From a virus: a stretch of 44,528 nt of DNA. The first letter of the stretch is position 1, and each line of letters opens with the position of its first letter. The stretch is from positions 1 to 44,528 of IMG/VR virus record IMGVR_UViG_3300038441_002034. One strand, 5' to 3'. This document shows, piece after piece, positions 10,185-14,939 of the stretch. The translations under genes and the position numbers were made by a program. The notes beneath the pieces were generated by a model that was not told the origin of the DNA, ran no database searches, and was given only the letters and a program-made list of their open reading frames with translations.

Positions 10185-10346
10185 CTACTGGCGACCTTCT
10201 AAGTCGCGCCACGTTTGGTCGAGTTTGTCGAGGTGCTTATCCAGACGCTTCCGATTCTTGTCGGATTTGTCGTGATAGATTTCCCACGCTTCCGAACCTT
10301 TCATGATTCGAATATTTTTCTTTGGGTAGAAAACTGATTCGGCCAT
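10185..10346 (-). CDS. Small charged 53-aa protein
   Basis: ATG 10346 shares one base with the stop of the HD-hydrolase gene (TAATG), and the frame closes at 10185. The product (MAESVFYPKKNIRIMKGSEA start) has a highly charged helical C-terminus (KSDKNRKRLDKHLDKLDQTW). Its tight coupling to the hydrolase gene suggests a shared role, but no function can be named. Confidence 0.65.
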   Translation of the reverse strand: MAESVFYPKKNIRIMKGSEAWEIYHDKSDKNRKRLDKHLDKLDQTWRDLEGRQ

Positions 10347-11125
10347 TACTCGTTATGATCCTCTTGCGAATTGGCGTAGGCTTCCAGCAAGTCCAGCGAC
10401 AGCGGCGCCACGGCGTCAAACATTGCGCGACCGGCTTCGGTGTAGAAGGTCGCAGCCTTGAGGAACGAACGTTGCTGTTTTACGAAATCGACCGGGGTGA
10501 TGTTGGTGCCGGTCTTCTTCATGATTTCGCAACGCAGGCTTTCCAGAATGTACAGCGTGTCAGCACTGGCAGACGCATACAGCAGGTCGGCGTCACGAAT
10601 GATTTGCTGCACAATGTTTTTCGGTTCGTGTATGAACGGAAACTCTGTTACACGAATTGCTTCTTCGGCGATTGGAAACACTTTGTCGAAGTTAACCCAC
10701 TCGACAACATTTTTCTGGCGCAGCATGGCCTTGTATTCGTGCAGGCCGGAAACAGCCGCTTCGATGTTGTGCGAATCTGGAACTTGTTGATTACCACCGG
10801 TGTGATGGAAATCGTGGAACAGGGCACCCAGTACCAGACCAGCAAATTGGGGATCGTTTAGGGTTTCGGTTGCCGCAATTTCAACAGCGTAATGAGCAAC
10901 GCCAATGCAATGTTGTGTATTGTGATACAGGTTGCCCGCACCGACGTTGTAGGTTTTCAGGTAGTCGAGTGCTTCGGGGTGGCCGATGGCTTTGAGCAGG
11001 ATACGCAAGCGCGCTTCTTTTTGCAGACGGGCAATGGCTAGGACTTGCGGGAAGTGGTGAATCTTTTTGGTATTGCCGTGCGCGTCAGTAACGGTGCCGC
11101 TGAAATTGCCAATCATCGGTCTCAT
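10346..11125 (-). CDS. HD-domain phosphohydrolase with class I cyclic-nucleotide phosphodiesterase signatures
   Basis: The 259-aa product carries the ordered metal motifs of class I cyclic-nucleotide phosphodiesterases: YHN-x2-H (residues 67-72, YHNTQHCIGVAHYA), then HD-x-HH-x-GGNQ (104-113, ALFHDFHHTGGNQ), a helix with HN (119-120), and RDAD (177-180). Classical enzymes read YHNxxHxxxV and HDxxHxGxNN, so the match is close in order and spacing. The family hydrolyses 3',5'-cyclic nucleotides at a two-metal site; here the substrate is unknown. It overlaps the NADAR gene by four bases and the 53-aa gene by one. Other HD families (nucleotidases, HDIG) are possible but lack the YHN signature. A role in degrading signalling nucleotides is inferred. 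Confidence 0.8.
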   Translation of the reverse strand: MRPMIGNFSGTVTDAHGNTKKIHHFPQVLAIARLQKEARLRILLKAIGHPEALDYLKTYNVGAGNLYHNTQHCIGVAHYAVEIAATETLNDPQFAGLVLGALFHDFHHTGGNQQVPDSHNIEAAVSGLHEYKAMLRQKNVVEWVNFDKVFPIAEEAIRVTEFPFIHEPKNIVQQIIRDADLLYASASADTLYILESLRCEIMKKTGTNITPVDFVKQQRSFLKAATFYTEAGRAMFDAVAPLSLDLLEAYANSQEDHNE

Positions 11126-11676
11126 TTGTCGTCACTCCCTTCGTAAAATTTCAAATCATCGAGGTTTGCGTTGATGCGGTACTTCGCCAGTTCCTCGTTG
11201 GTCATGCTGCGGACCTTTGCGAGAATCTTGGTGAGTTTGCGTTTACCTTTTCCGTCGCGCCCGGTTCCCCAGTATTCATCCCACGTCGCGTCTTCGGTCA
11301 ACGTAGCTTCGCCGGTATCGCGCAGCAACCGAAGCAAGATTGGGTTTTGTGCAAACTTGTGCGCCACGGCATTCAGCATGATGCTGTCTTTCTTTTCGTT
11401 GAACGCAGGGTCGAGTGGCGCCCCGCCTTTCTCGGAACCGAAATACTTGGCCTTCGACCAGTCAAACGCGTTGATGATCTTGGCGCGGAAGGTTTTGTTT
11501 TTCGTCTTGTGCGCTTGGTAGTAGTGCTCAGCGCTTTTAAACAAAACTGGCTTGCCGCCAAACATGGCGATGAACGCAGCCGGGAACGGGTTCGACAGAA
11601 ACGCGTACTTGATGGTCCGGCTAGTGAACGTGATTTCCTTTTGCTTTTTCTTCATCGGAGGAAGTCCTAAACCCAT
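11122..11676 (-). CDS. NADAR-domain protein (YbiA-like)
   Basis: The 184-aa product matches NADAR proteins: FLSN (26-29), SAEHYYQAHK (48-57), FRAKI (63-67), a helix IMLNAVAHKFAQNP (99-112), a DTGEATLTE segment (120-128) and WGTGRDGKG (136-144). The family includes YbiA, which cleaves N-glycosidic bonds, and NADAR antitoxins that remove ADP-ribose from DNA guanine in DarT1 systems. The canonical Asn-Leu-Gly near the C-terminal motif is Lys-Leu-Thr here. I start at ATG 11676 because GAGG lies 5 bases upstream; a GTG is 6 bases further up. It lies directly after a terminator and overlaps the HD hydrolase. Substrate unknown. Confidence 0.85.
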   Translation of the reverse strand: MGLGLPPMKKKQKEITFTSRTIKYAFLSNPFPAAFIAMFGGKPVLFKSAEHYYQAHKTKNKTFRAKIINAFDWSKAKYFGSEKGGAPLDPAFNEKKDSIMLNAVAHKFAQNPILLRLLRDTGEATLTEDATWDEYWGTGRDGKGKRKLTKILAKVRSMTNEELAKYRINANLDDLKFYEGSDDK

Positions 11677-11685
11677 ACGCACCTC

Positions 11686-11717
11686 AAACAGAAACGGGCA
11701 GCACTAGGCCACCCGTT
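11686..11717 (-). terminator. Rho-independent terminator
   Basis: RNA AACGGGUGGC pairs with GCUGCCCGUU (two G-U pairs) and is followed by UCUGUUU. It lies between the dUTPase-like gene and the NADAR gene, whose ribosome-binding site is at its downstream edge. The loop is CUAGU, sharing GCACTAGG (plus strand) with the terminators at 6736 and 33217. Confidence 0.7.
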
Positions 11718-11725
11718 CGCGATTG

Positions 11726-12619
11726 TTACTGTTCGATGCGCTGGTACGCTTCGATGGTTTTCGCGTAACGTTCGGTCAGCGCGGTCATGATTTTTGCGTT
11801 GTCGATTTCACCGCCAGCCAGCAGCATACCTTCCAGAATGTCGGCCAGATGTTCGGTGTCTTCGCGGTCGTCGGCCCACACTTTCACGTAGGTCGCCGGG
11901 TTTTCGAGGAACTGGGTTTTGTTGTAGGCGAGGCCGTGTTCTTTCGCGCCGTTCGCGGTACGGAAACGATTCAGAACCGACTTCGACAGGTATTCGGTCA
12001 GCAGGTTTTGAACGGTAAAATCCGGATCGACGATGAACAGAGCGGAGAAAAGATTTTCCCACGCGCCGCACAGATCGAAAGTGCTGTAGGTCACTTGGGT
12101 TGCGATGTGGCGACCATACAGGTTGGAAACCAGACGCTCCAGATGTTGCACTGCGTGTTCCGAAGTTTCTTTTTCGGTTTCTGCGAACAGGTCGTTGTAC
12201 TTGCTGCCGTAGGCGTGTTCGGCGTTTACCCAACCTTCGCGCATTGCGTCGAGAGGCGTGTAAACTTTTTGAACAGCCGACATTTGACCAGCCCAGTAGT
12301 ACGGCTTGGAACTACGCTGCACAACGTGGGTGAACGAAAGCAGGAAGTGCGCGGCGTCGATCAGTTCCATGCGGAATTGCGGACGGTTGAAATCGACTTT
12401 CGCCCACCACTTGTACGGAGTGAACGCGATTGCTTCCGCGACTTCCAGTTTGATTGCGCGGCGATACGCGAAACCGTGGTCGTTTTCCAGAGTTGCGTTG
12501 CGCCATTGCACGCCGCCCATCAGGTCGTTCAGGTCAGCCTGCACGCCGAGAATGGTATTGAAAACGGCAGTGTGTTCTGGCATTTCGTGGCCGAGGTAGC
12601 GAGCCGGGAATCGAGACAT
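11726..12619 (-). CDS. All-alpha NTP pyrophosphatase, dimeric dUTPase-like
   Basis: The 297-aa product has the metal-binding pattern of all-alpha NTP pyrophosphatases: E59-x2-E62 in a helix (KLEVAEAIAF), a WW pair at 71-72, then E86-x2-D89 followed by HF (91-92, ELIDAAHFLLSF). The dimeric dUTPase family uses this arrangement to hydrolyse dUTP to dUMP, limiting uracil in DNA; MazG-type enzymes share it. The length suits a single-chain dUTPase with a long C-terminal helical part. It lies in the nucleotide block with a dCMP deaminase about 1.2 kb upstream, which would together raise dUMP for dTMP synthesis. Catalytic residues are complete; substrate specificity is inferred. Confidence 0.8.
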   Translation of the reverse strand: MSRFPARYLGHEMPEHTAVFNTILGVQADLNDLMGGVQWRNATLENDHGFAYRRAIKLEVAEAIAFTPYKWWAKVDFNRPQFRMELIDAAHFLLSFTHVVQRSSKPYYWAGQMSAVQKVYTPLDAMREGWVNAEHAYGSKYNDLFAETEKETSEHAVQHLERLVSNLYGRHIATQVTYSTFDLCGAWENLFSALFIVDPDFTVQNLLTEYLSKSVLNRFRTANGAKEHGLAYNKTQFLENPATYVKVWADDREDTEHLADILEGMLLAGGEIDNAKIMTALTERYAKTIEAYQRIEQ

Positions 12620-13848: not shown

Positions 13849-14610
13849 TCAATTCAGAAAATTTGGAACCCCGTAATGCGCTTGCAAACCGAGGATGATG
13901 TTTTCCTTTGGTGCGATCTTGATTGGCATTGCCGTTTCGGAAAGCTTCACGGTAATGGTACAGTCGAGTTCGTTCCATTCGGTGATTGGTTCTTCCTTTC
14001 CGAAAACGCCCGAGCGGTTTACAATCGCGCAGGCAAACGCTTCGGCCATGCCAGCGGAAAGGTGGATAAACGTTGGAATCAGTTTGGCGATACGGTCGAG
14101 GCCGCGTTCGTTCTTTGTGAGTTCCAGCAGGTAGTTGGATTGTTCACCAACACTGAGCGAACGCAAAACCACGTTGTGATAAGGTTCGCACATAATGCCA
14201 GCTTGGAAAAAGTCGATCAACGAATTCGAACCCGGATACGGCACGTCGTAATAGACGGCGCCCAGTTTCGCTTCGATGATTTTCGCACTGCACAAATCGC
14301 AAGGCTGCGCAGTCGCATACATTTCGGCACCAACAATGTCGATGCCCATACGTTTTGCAAAGTCGATTGCATTGGCTTCGGCGTGGTCGCATTCACACAT
14401 ATGCAAGCCGCCACCACTGGGCACACCATAAATCAGACGTTCGCATTTGTCCGGATGTGGTACTTTTGGTTTCACACCGTTGAAGCCCGCCGAAATCTGA
14501 CGATTGCCGCGAGAGATTACGCAACCGACTTTACGACCCGAAGCGCAGGTCACTTGGTTGGCGTACATATACGCAATGTCGATGAAAAACTTTGCCCAGT
14601 GTTGACGCAT
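13849..14610 (-). CDS. dCMP deaminase with C-terminal extension
   Basis: The 253-aa product starts at ATG 14610 (GGAG upstream); frames extending to 14694 have no support. The zinc site of cytidine/dCMP deaminases is present: HAE at 76-78 (CECDHAEANAID) and PC-x2-C at 103-107 (AQPCDLC), with additional Cys at 22, 30, 56, 72 and 74 of the type that builds a second zinc site in T4-type enzymes. The enzyme would convert dCMP to dUMP, feeding thymidylate. Typical family members have about 150-190 residues, so roughly residues 150-253 are an extension of unknown function, with a beta-rich tail. It pairs logically with the dUTPase-like gene. Confidence 0.85.
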   Translation of the reverse strand: MRQHWAKFFIDIAYMYANQVTCASGRKVGCVISRGNRQISAGFNGVKPKVPHPDKCERLIYGVPSGGGLHMCECDHAEANAIDFAKRMGIDIVGAEMYATAQPCDLCSAKIIEAKLGAVYYDVPYPGSNSLIDFFQAGIMCEPYHNVVLRSLSVGEQSNYLLELTKNERGLDRIAKLIPTFIHLSAGMAEAFACAIVNRSGVFGKEEPITEWNELDCTITVKLSETAMPIKIAPKENIILGLQAHYGVPNFLN

Positions 14611-14651
14611 TTTATTCTCCAACGGGGCGTATTGGTTTGCGCCCCATACAG

Positions 14652-14939
14652 TTAGCGGATTTTGGTTGTGGCGATATGGATTCCGTCTTCCCACGTTAAC
14701 CGTGAATGGAACAGAATCACGTCGTTTGGCATGCCGTAGAGATTGATGCAGACCATACCTTCAACCTGTTCAATCTCCACGTCGAGAAGCAAATCTTTGC
14801 GGGCAATCTCCAAAGCGGATTGAAGCGCCCCGTCTTTAGTCTGCCACATATCGACATAGATTTCTTTTTTGATTTTACCGGGATCGGGTTCTTGTATGTG
14901 ATTGACCCGATTGTCGCCCAGTATTTCCCATGAGTGCAT
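14652..14939 (-). CDS. Unknown 95-aa protein
   Basis: ATG 14939 has an AAGGAAA-type site 8-10 bases upstream. The product is a small mixed alpha/beta protein (KEIYVDMWQTKDGALQSALE, then VEIEQVEGMVCINLYGMPND). No motif recognised. It sits between the hub gene and the dCMP deaminase. Confidence 0.7.
   Translation of the reverse strand: MHSWEILGDNRVNHIQEPDPGKIKKEIYVDMWQTKDGALQSALEIARKDLLLDVEIEQVEGMVCINLYGMPNDVILFHSRLTWEDGIHIATTKIR

Follow-up and report, generated by a model that had tools for sequence, protein, structure and literature searches.

An overlapping YbiA-type NADAR gene and an HD phosphohydrolase gene with class I phosphodiesterase-like motifs in a genome fragment of a large phage

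For jumbo phages, at least six families of phosphodiesterases (PDEs), together with NADAR, have been proposed as counter-nucleotide defences, and the part of that text dealing with them names five: HD-GYP, HD-alarmone, DHH, calcineurin-like, and 2H (PMC7824862). A class I PDE-like family is absent from the names given in that part, and the sixth, unnamed there, could in principle be that one. The same counter-defence proposal is made for NADAR in the section of a second work that puts its frequency at 48% in medium and jumbo phages and suggests that genes of this kind could be early ones or have products packaged in the virion (PMC9503650). Counter-defence use is already proposed, then, for NADAR and for other PDE families of jumbo phages. 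As regards a class I PDE in a phage, no title or abstract describing one was found among the matches listed from the open-licence PMC literature. Phage enzymes that degrade cyclic-nucleotide signals include, in the excerpts cited, Apyc1, the anti-CBASS nucleases, and the mycobacteriophage gp48 phosphoesterase (PMC9117128, PMC12287305).

Here, we analyzed a NADAR gene and an HD-domain gene that overlap within the window, the whole of the 44,528-base virus record under study. Another record, IMGVR_UViG_3300028608_000008 (124,245 bases), carries the same genes at 100% identity, shows no difference from the window along 25,102 compared bases, and extends past window position 1. Thus, both records come from one virus, of which the window covers a fragment and whose genome is larger than 124 kb; from its relatives, we infer that the virus is a jumbo phage. 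The scored genes of the region are all on the minus strand. They encode a major head protein, a head maturation protease, a tail sheath, a tape-measure-like protein, and a baseplate-hub-like protein (a weak match), as well as a NAD-dependent DNA ligase, a dCMP deaminase-like protein, and a dUTPase_2 protein. The dCMP deaminase-like and dUTPase_2 genes suggest a dUMP-making nucleotide block within this virion-gene-rich region.

Table 1. Features around the NADAR and HD genes, in window positions
Feature	Position	Strand	Basis
53-aa ORF, function unknown	10185..10346	-	PHROG 6391, 37.8 bits; TAATG overlap with HD stop
HD phosphohydrolase with class I PDE-like motifs and predicted fold, 259 aa	10346..11125	-	Pfam, PHROG, model, 29-protein alignment
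ATGA stop/start overlap of NADAR and HD genes	11122..11125	-	Sequence
NADAR-domain protein, YbiA-type, 184 aa from ATG	11122..11676	-	Pfam PF08719
11-pair stem-loop, possible terminator	11692..11718	-	Between dUTPase stop and NADAR start
dUTPase_2 protein, upstream of NADAR gene	11726..12619	-	Pfam PF08761, 41.8 bits (cut-off 22.9)
dCMP deaminase-like protein	13849..14694		Scored gene of the region

Both reading frames are real minus-strand genes, as the sequence-only reading had proposed: one product matches the Pfam NADAR family, and the homology of the other across 29 diverse proteins makes a chance explanation untenable. The NADAR frame could also start at a GTG at 11682 (186 aa). The ATGA overlap is present as described. 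The same reading had seen in the two genes a back-to-back pair with its own upstream terminator; neither the terminator nor a self-contained pair was confirmed. The stop of the HD gene runs into the next ORF as TAATG, so the two genes are part of a longer gene run. What lies upstream of the NADAR gene is a hairpin with a fold z of -2.05 (6 of 200 shuffles were equally stable), absent from the eight sites that a terminator scan listed (shuffled sequences gave 6.2 on average). Its function as a terminator is plausible.

The NADAR protein, flanked by the HD and dUTPase_2 genes, scored 72.4 bits against Pfam PF08719 (cut-off 35.1), which places it in the NADAR superfamily. It gave an E-value of 1.4e-21 in a profile search of its own record and of 1.1e-12 with phmmer against the YbiA structure 2b3w, and relatives were found in 234 GenBank phage records. 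Alignment with relatives identified E50, K57, E128, D133, and W136, which correspond by motif spacing to E43, K50, E125, D130, and W133, the key residues given for the P. nicotianae NADAR enzyme in the portion of that study cited here (PMC11543638). In the same portion, the catalytic position is Glu in YbiA, Asp in BC4488 and DarT1-linked proteins, and His in the phage gp30.3 type. The window protein has Glu at this position (E128), followed by D133 (+5) and W136 (+8), and it belongs to the YbiA subfamily. The earlier assignment to NADAR is supported, the protein being of the YbiA (Glu) type rather than the DarT1-linked (Asp) or gp30.3 (His) type. Weak matches were also observed to the PADLOC candidate model PDC-M42C (39.9 bits) and to the NCBIfam model 'NADAR family anti-phage protein' (33.6 bits, cut-off 240). 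A study of phage defence by DarTG reportedly describes a phage NADAR acting as an anti-DarT factor, AdfN. In the results cited from another study, the NADAR of a T4-type phage was active on guanosine-ADPr in vitro, hydrolysing it, and did not rescue cells from DarT1, and YbiA likewise showed the in vitro activity and no DarT1 protection (PMC11125620).

The HD protein scored 26.0 bits against Pfam PDEase_I (cut-off 24.8), covering only residues 67-114, 23.4 bits against Pfam HD (cut-off 22), and 158.9 bits against PHROG 16069, 'phosphohydrolase'; in PADLOC, it had no match. Its relatives are present in 57 of 50,697 GenBank phage records, each of at least 248 kb, at 25-34% identity. IMG/VR adds 35 loci, the contigs of which measure 10 to 369 kb. 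Matches in plasmids were partial and weak (2 of 72,556 records). Fifteen residues are invariant in all 29 aligned family members, including Y67, H68, H72, H104, D105, H108, N120, D180, E200, and F221; the set holds the His of YHN and the putative HD metal ligands (H68, H72, H104, D105, and D180). Q218 is conserved in 25 of 29. Class I PDEs have an invariant glutamine and a clamp Phe, for which Q218 and F221 are candidate counterparts. Residues 1-25 form a two-strand extension in the model (8-13 and 19-24), of moderate model confidence and mostly gapped in aligned relatives.

The motifs on which the class I PDE assignment had first been based, YHNTQH (67-72) and HDFHHTGGNQ (104-113), are both there. 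The window protein carries the strict PROSITE class I PDE signature, HD[LIVMFY]xHx[AG]xx[NQ]x[LIVMFY], present in 1 of the 29 family members, whereas HDxxH is found in 29 of 29. The NQ is a two-residue insertion, seen among the 29 aligned proteins in the window protein only, and most relatives read HD..HSGGxx-D..N at this place. None of the five other family members scanned passed the PDEase_I cut-off (best 24.2 vs. 24.8), and five of nine members matched the model at E 0.01. A profile of the whole family matched PDE10A in the PDB (E 3e-9 over 66 positions), as well as PDE8A, PDE5, and the HD hydrolase 2pq7 (E 6.7e-8). An attempt to match the C-terminal half with PDEs at the sequence level failed: the profile of this half found no PDE in the PDB.

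Relatives were also searched for in bacteria. A pattern scan of genome contigs gave six loci from 326 pattern matches, and PycTM was found in three of the five loci scanned with Pfam (70-98 bits). The phage HD profile matched 59 of 148 genomes of Bacteroidota, the phylum of the host of the protein L061 used below as a control; in other, barely sampled phyla, one of two genomes had a partial match. Thirty-two bacterial proteins, chosen among the best matches for which a locus was recovered, had the Pfam domains HD (32), PycTM (17), YitT_membrane (2), and Guanylate_cyc (1). The presence of PycTM in 17 of them and of a nucleotide cyclase in one favours a cyclic-mononucleotide chemistry. In a tree of 73 rows, with no PDE included, phage and bacterial proteins fell on opposite sides of a branch with 100/100 support. 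Bacterial class I PDEs were considered as an outgroup and rejected: PF00233 matched in 5 of 296 Bacteroidota genomes, none over the cut-off, which left the tree without a PDE. At the loci L058 to L061, no Pfam cyclase was found in the 10 neighbouring ORFs scanned out of 16, and a role of the HD-PycTM fusions as Pycsar effectors is unproven. A DUF2652 protein adjoins HD-PycTM in both Desertivirga loci (L058:6138-6752 and L060:6178-6813). One of the 32 Bacteroidota proteins, assigned from its sequence to L085:904-2112, has an N-terminus like that of class III cyclases ahead of HD (Guanylate_cyc E 6.1e-43), and this single chain might both make and break a cyclic nucleotide.

At the structural level, the model of the HD protein had a pLDDT of 91.4. 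Foldseek retrieved class I PDEs (best E 7.3e-5, TM 0.56), and VIA-align superposed the model on RhoPDE 5vyd over 226 residues (Z 19.0, rmsd 3.5). The 50 structural matches listed were all class I PDEs, with no non-PDE HD structure among them. Structure prediction was in line with the class that the motifs had suggested, but a control scored nearly as high. The model of the bacterial HD protein L061 (pLDDT 95.0), built from an alignment of four bacterial and 15 phage rows whose composition may bias the control, aligned with PDE10A (Z 18.5, rmsd 2.4, 192 aligned), with 2pq7 (17.7, rmsd 3.2, 162 aligned, tied), and with Lin1889 3b57 (17.5, rmsd 2.4, 167 aligned, level with most PDE rows). Since L061 aligns with PDEs and HD hydrolases alike, the fold does not fix the substrate; as modeled, it would place the HD protein in the neighbourhood of PDEs and small HD proteins, short of proving cyclic-mononucleotide hydrolysis. 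The motifs tip the balance toward PDEs, because the third His of HDxxH is present in 29 of 29 phage proteins vs. 2 of 32 bacterial ones at the aligned position. Membership of the HD protein in class I PDEs is unproven, with fold and motifs in line with it and the fold alone not discriminating.

The two genes had been read as a functional pair, and in the records examined they are not a conserved unit. NADAR was looked for in 48 HD-bearing records, comprising 35 from IMG/VR and 13 of the 57 from GenBank (Noxifer is in both sets). It was present in 5 of 35, this virus included, and in 4 of 13, and only this virus has both genes adjacent. In Lu11 (JQ768459 228686-232491, L009), they are 2.7 kb apart on one strand and in the same order, and the window's 54 ORFs had no other match in 36 kb of Lu11. 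Its NADAR appears from the sequence to carry the His-type catalytic position. In six other distinct records, the gap was 23-154 kb at its shortest: 23 kb in LR756501 if circular (713 kb linear), 38 kb in PaBG, 43 kb in G006, 94 kb in G029 (47 if circular), 134 kb in Saruman (129 if circular), and 154 kb in G030, whose probable duplicate G031, with the same HD protein, was excluded. Assuming uniform placement, the chance that at least one of seven records falls within 3 kb is P ~0.16; the proximity in Lu11 is intriguing and, alone, not significant. Including the window, at least two within 3 kb has P ~0.018, which counts the discovery case and was not relied on. In a comparison of neighbours at 37 loci, the HD cluster was found in 36 and the next commonest clusters in four, and no neighbour from the window was in the 14 largest clusters (BLASTP 1e-5, which distant neighbours could escape). 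A conserved NADAR-HD operon was rejected on the basis of the neighbours, the NADAR check, and the gaps in these records.

Our preferred explanation, held tentatively and with slightly less than even confidence, is that these are two separate accessory enzymes that lower host signals, a YbiA-type NADAR and an HD protein that is a probable cyclic-mononucleotide phosphodiesterase. They would belong to a large phage that has them in one overlapping gene run in this lineage. The NADAR would hydrolyse an N-glycosidic bond of the guanosine-ADP-ribose kind. The HD protein would be a small metal-dependent phosphodiesterase of a phage clade, in which H72, H104, D105, and D180 presumably hold the metal and the general acid would be H68 of YHN, by analogy; it would most likely open a 3',5'-cyclic mononucleotide. 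Both enzymes may thereby lower nucleotide or ADP-ribose signals or modifications of the host during infection, and a putative counter-defence role is reasonable. The unconserved order of the two genes counts against this explanation.

Nucleotide housekeeping would explain the locus differently, and we regard it as unlikely, though a serious competitor. The HD protein would then be a house-cleaning or pool enzyme (a YpgQ-like pyrophosphohydrolase or a 5'-nucleotidase) working with dUTPase_2 and the dCMP deaminase-like protein, and NADAR would control N-glycoside damage, as YbiA does in riboflavin synthesis. The presence of dUTPase_2 and dCMP deaminase-like genes close by fits this and counts against the preferred explanation, but no window neighbour recurs in the 14 largest neighbour clusters. 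In favour, 2pq7 and 3b57 score like PDEs in the L061 control; against it, the YH general-acid motif and HDxxH are present in every family member. HD phosphatases (YpgQ/YfbR type) conserve an Arg at -3 from the first metal His, as we read the part of a review on their motifs (PMC8177086). Arg is found at -3 in 0 of 29 family members and at +3 in one, which also counts against housekeeping; it is likewise absent at -3 in the 32 bacterial relatives, so it does not separate phage from bacterial proteins. The NADAR protein scored 70.9 bits against the riboflavin N-glycosidase model TIGR02464 (cut-off 73.7), and in the passage cited the PaBG authors count its NADAR as a control of riboflavin damage (PMC7412058). 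On the other hand, hydrolysis of cAMP and cGMP is reported in the extract cited for a YpgQ-like HD protein from a plant (PMC8431786), so the two classes are not sharply apart.

The HD protein might instead hydrolyse another signal, either (p)ppGpp or one of the cyclic di- or oligonucleotides used by CBASS or type III CRISPR, which we consider improbable. Members of the HD superfamily act on such molecules, as stated in the relevant part of the review (PMC8177086), and HD-GYP and HD-alarmone enzymes are among the families proposed for jumbo phages (PMC7824862, in the part cited). However, the motif given there for polynuclear HD phosphodiesterases and HD-GYP is H...HD...H...HH...D (PMC8177086), and no HH pair is invariant in the 29-protein alignment; the best-aligned folds are those of mononucleotide PDEs. 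A dedicated two-enzyme counter-defence module, with NADAR and HD acting on the same pathway, is very unlikely in our view. The ATGA overlap would fit it, as would Lu11, where members of both families keep strand and order as sole matches, but the gaps in the six other records and the chance probability do not. Neither does the frequency of NADAR in HD-bearing records (many of the 35 being fragments), which shows no enrichment over the 48% given for phages of medium and jumbo size (PMC9503650, as excerpted).

A wider scheme can be drawn from the preferred explanation, and we hold it as doubtful. In large phages, a clade of minimal class I PDE-like enzymes, so far little described, would destroy cUMP and cCMP (or cAMP and cGMP) and thereby block Pycsar-type defence, and bacteria would fuse a relative of this HD domain to the transmembrane domains of Pycsar effectors and to a nucleotide cyclase, with one fold on opposite sides. 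If the HD protein does cleave cyclic mononucleotides, a class I PDE-like family would join the nucleotide-degrading enzymes already suggested for jumbo phages, and one could test directly which cyclic-nucleotide defences these phages encounter. Its relationship with HD-PycTM and cyclase-HD proteins would also suggest a function for the bacterial HD domain.

When compared to known systems, the window NADAR shares the catalytic Glu, Glu50, and Lys57 with YbiA-type NADARs (E. coli YbiA and PaBG gp104). It is 50.3% identical to the PaBG protein and 52% identical to that of an IMG/VR contig, and the GKGKN of relatives reads GKGKR. The HD protein belongs to PHROG 16069, together with PaBG gp57, Lu11_0281, and proteins of Noxifer, Salmondvirus, Alexandravirus, and BcepSaruman, and differs from these members by its N-terminal strand pair and the NQ insertion. 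Known from sequence and model, it shares with class I PDEs (PDE10A, PDE5A, and RhoPDE; PF00233) the predicted fold over ~220 residues, YHN..H, HD..H, and the metal Asp, and it passes the Pfam cut-off; its C-terminal half has no sequence match to them. Family members are smaller, at ~200-260 aa (313-322 in Alexandravirus and Sasquatchvirus) vs. ~300-330 in the PDE chains listed, and have 10-12 residues from the His of HDxxH to the conserved Asn, whereas class I PDEs have five.

The HD domains of Bacteroidota, many with PycTM (PF18967) and one with a class III cyclase domain, match the phage profile over nearly its full length (best E 7.5e-24, positions 16-217 of 221). Both groups share H..H, HD, T, D-A-D, and E. 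The bacterial domains mostly have HDxGY and HE, whereas the phage family has HDxxH and N; HDxxH occurs anywhere in the protein in 5 of the 32 bacterial sequences. Apyc1 and Acb1 presumably have folds different from that of the HD protein. For Apyc1, the anti-CBASS nucleases, and gp48, the proposed outcome is nonetheless the same in the excerpts cited, namely the removal of host nucleotide signals (PMC9117128, PMC12287305).
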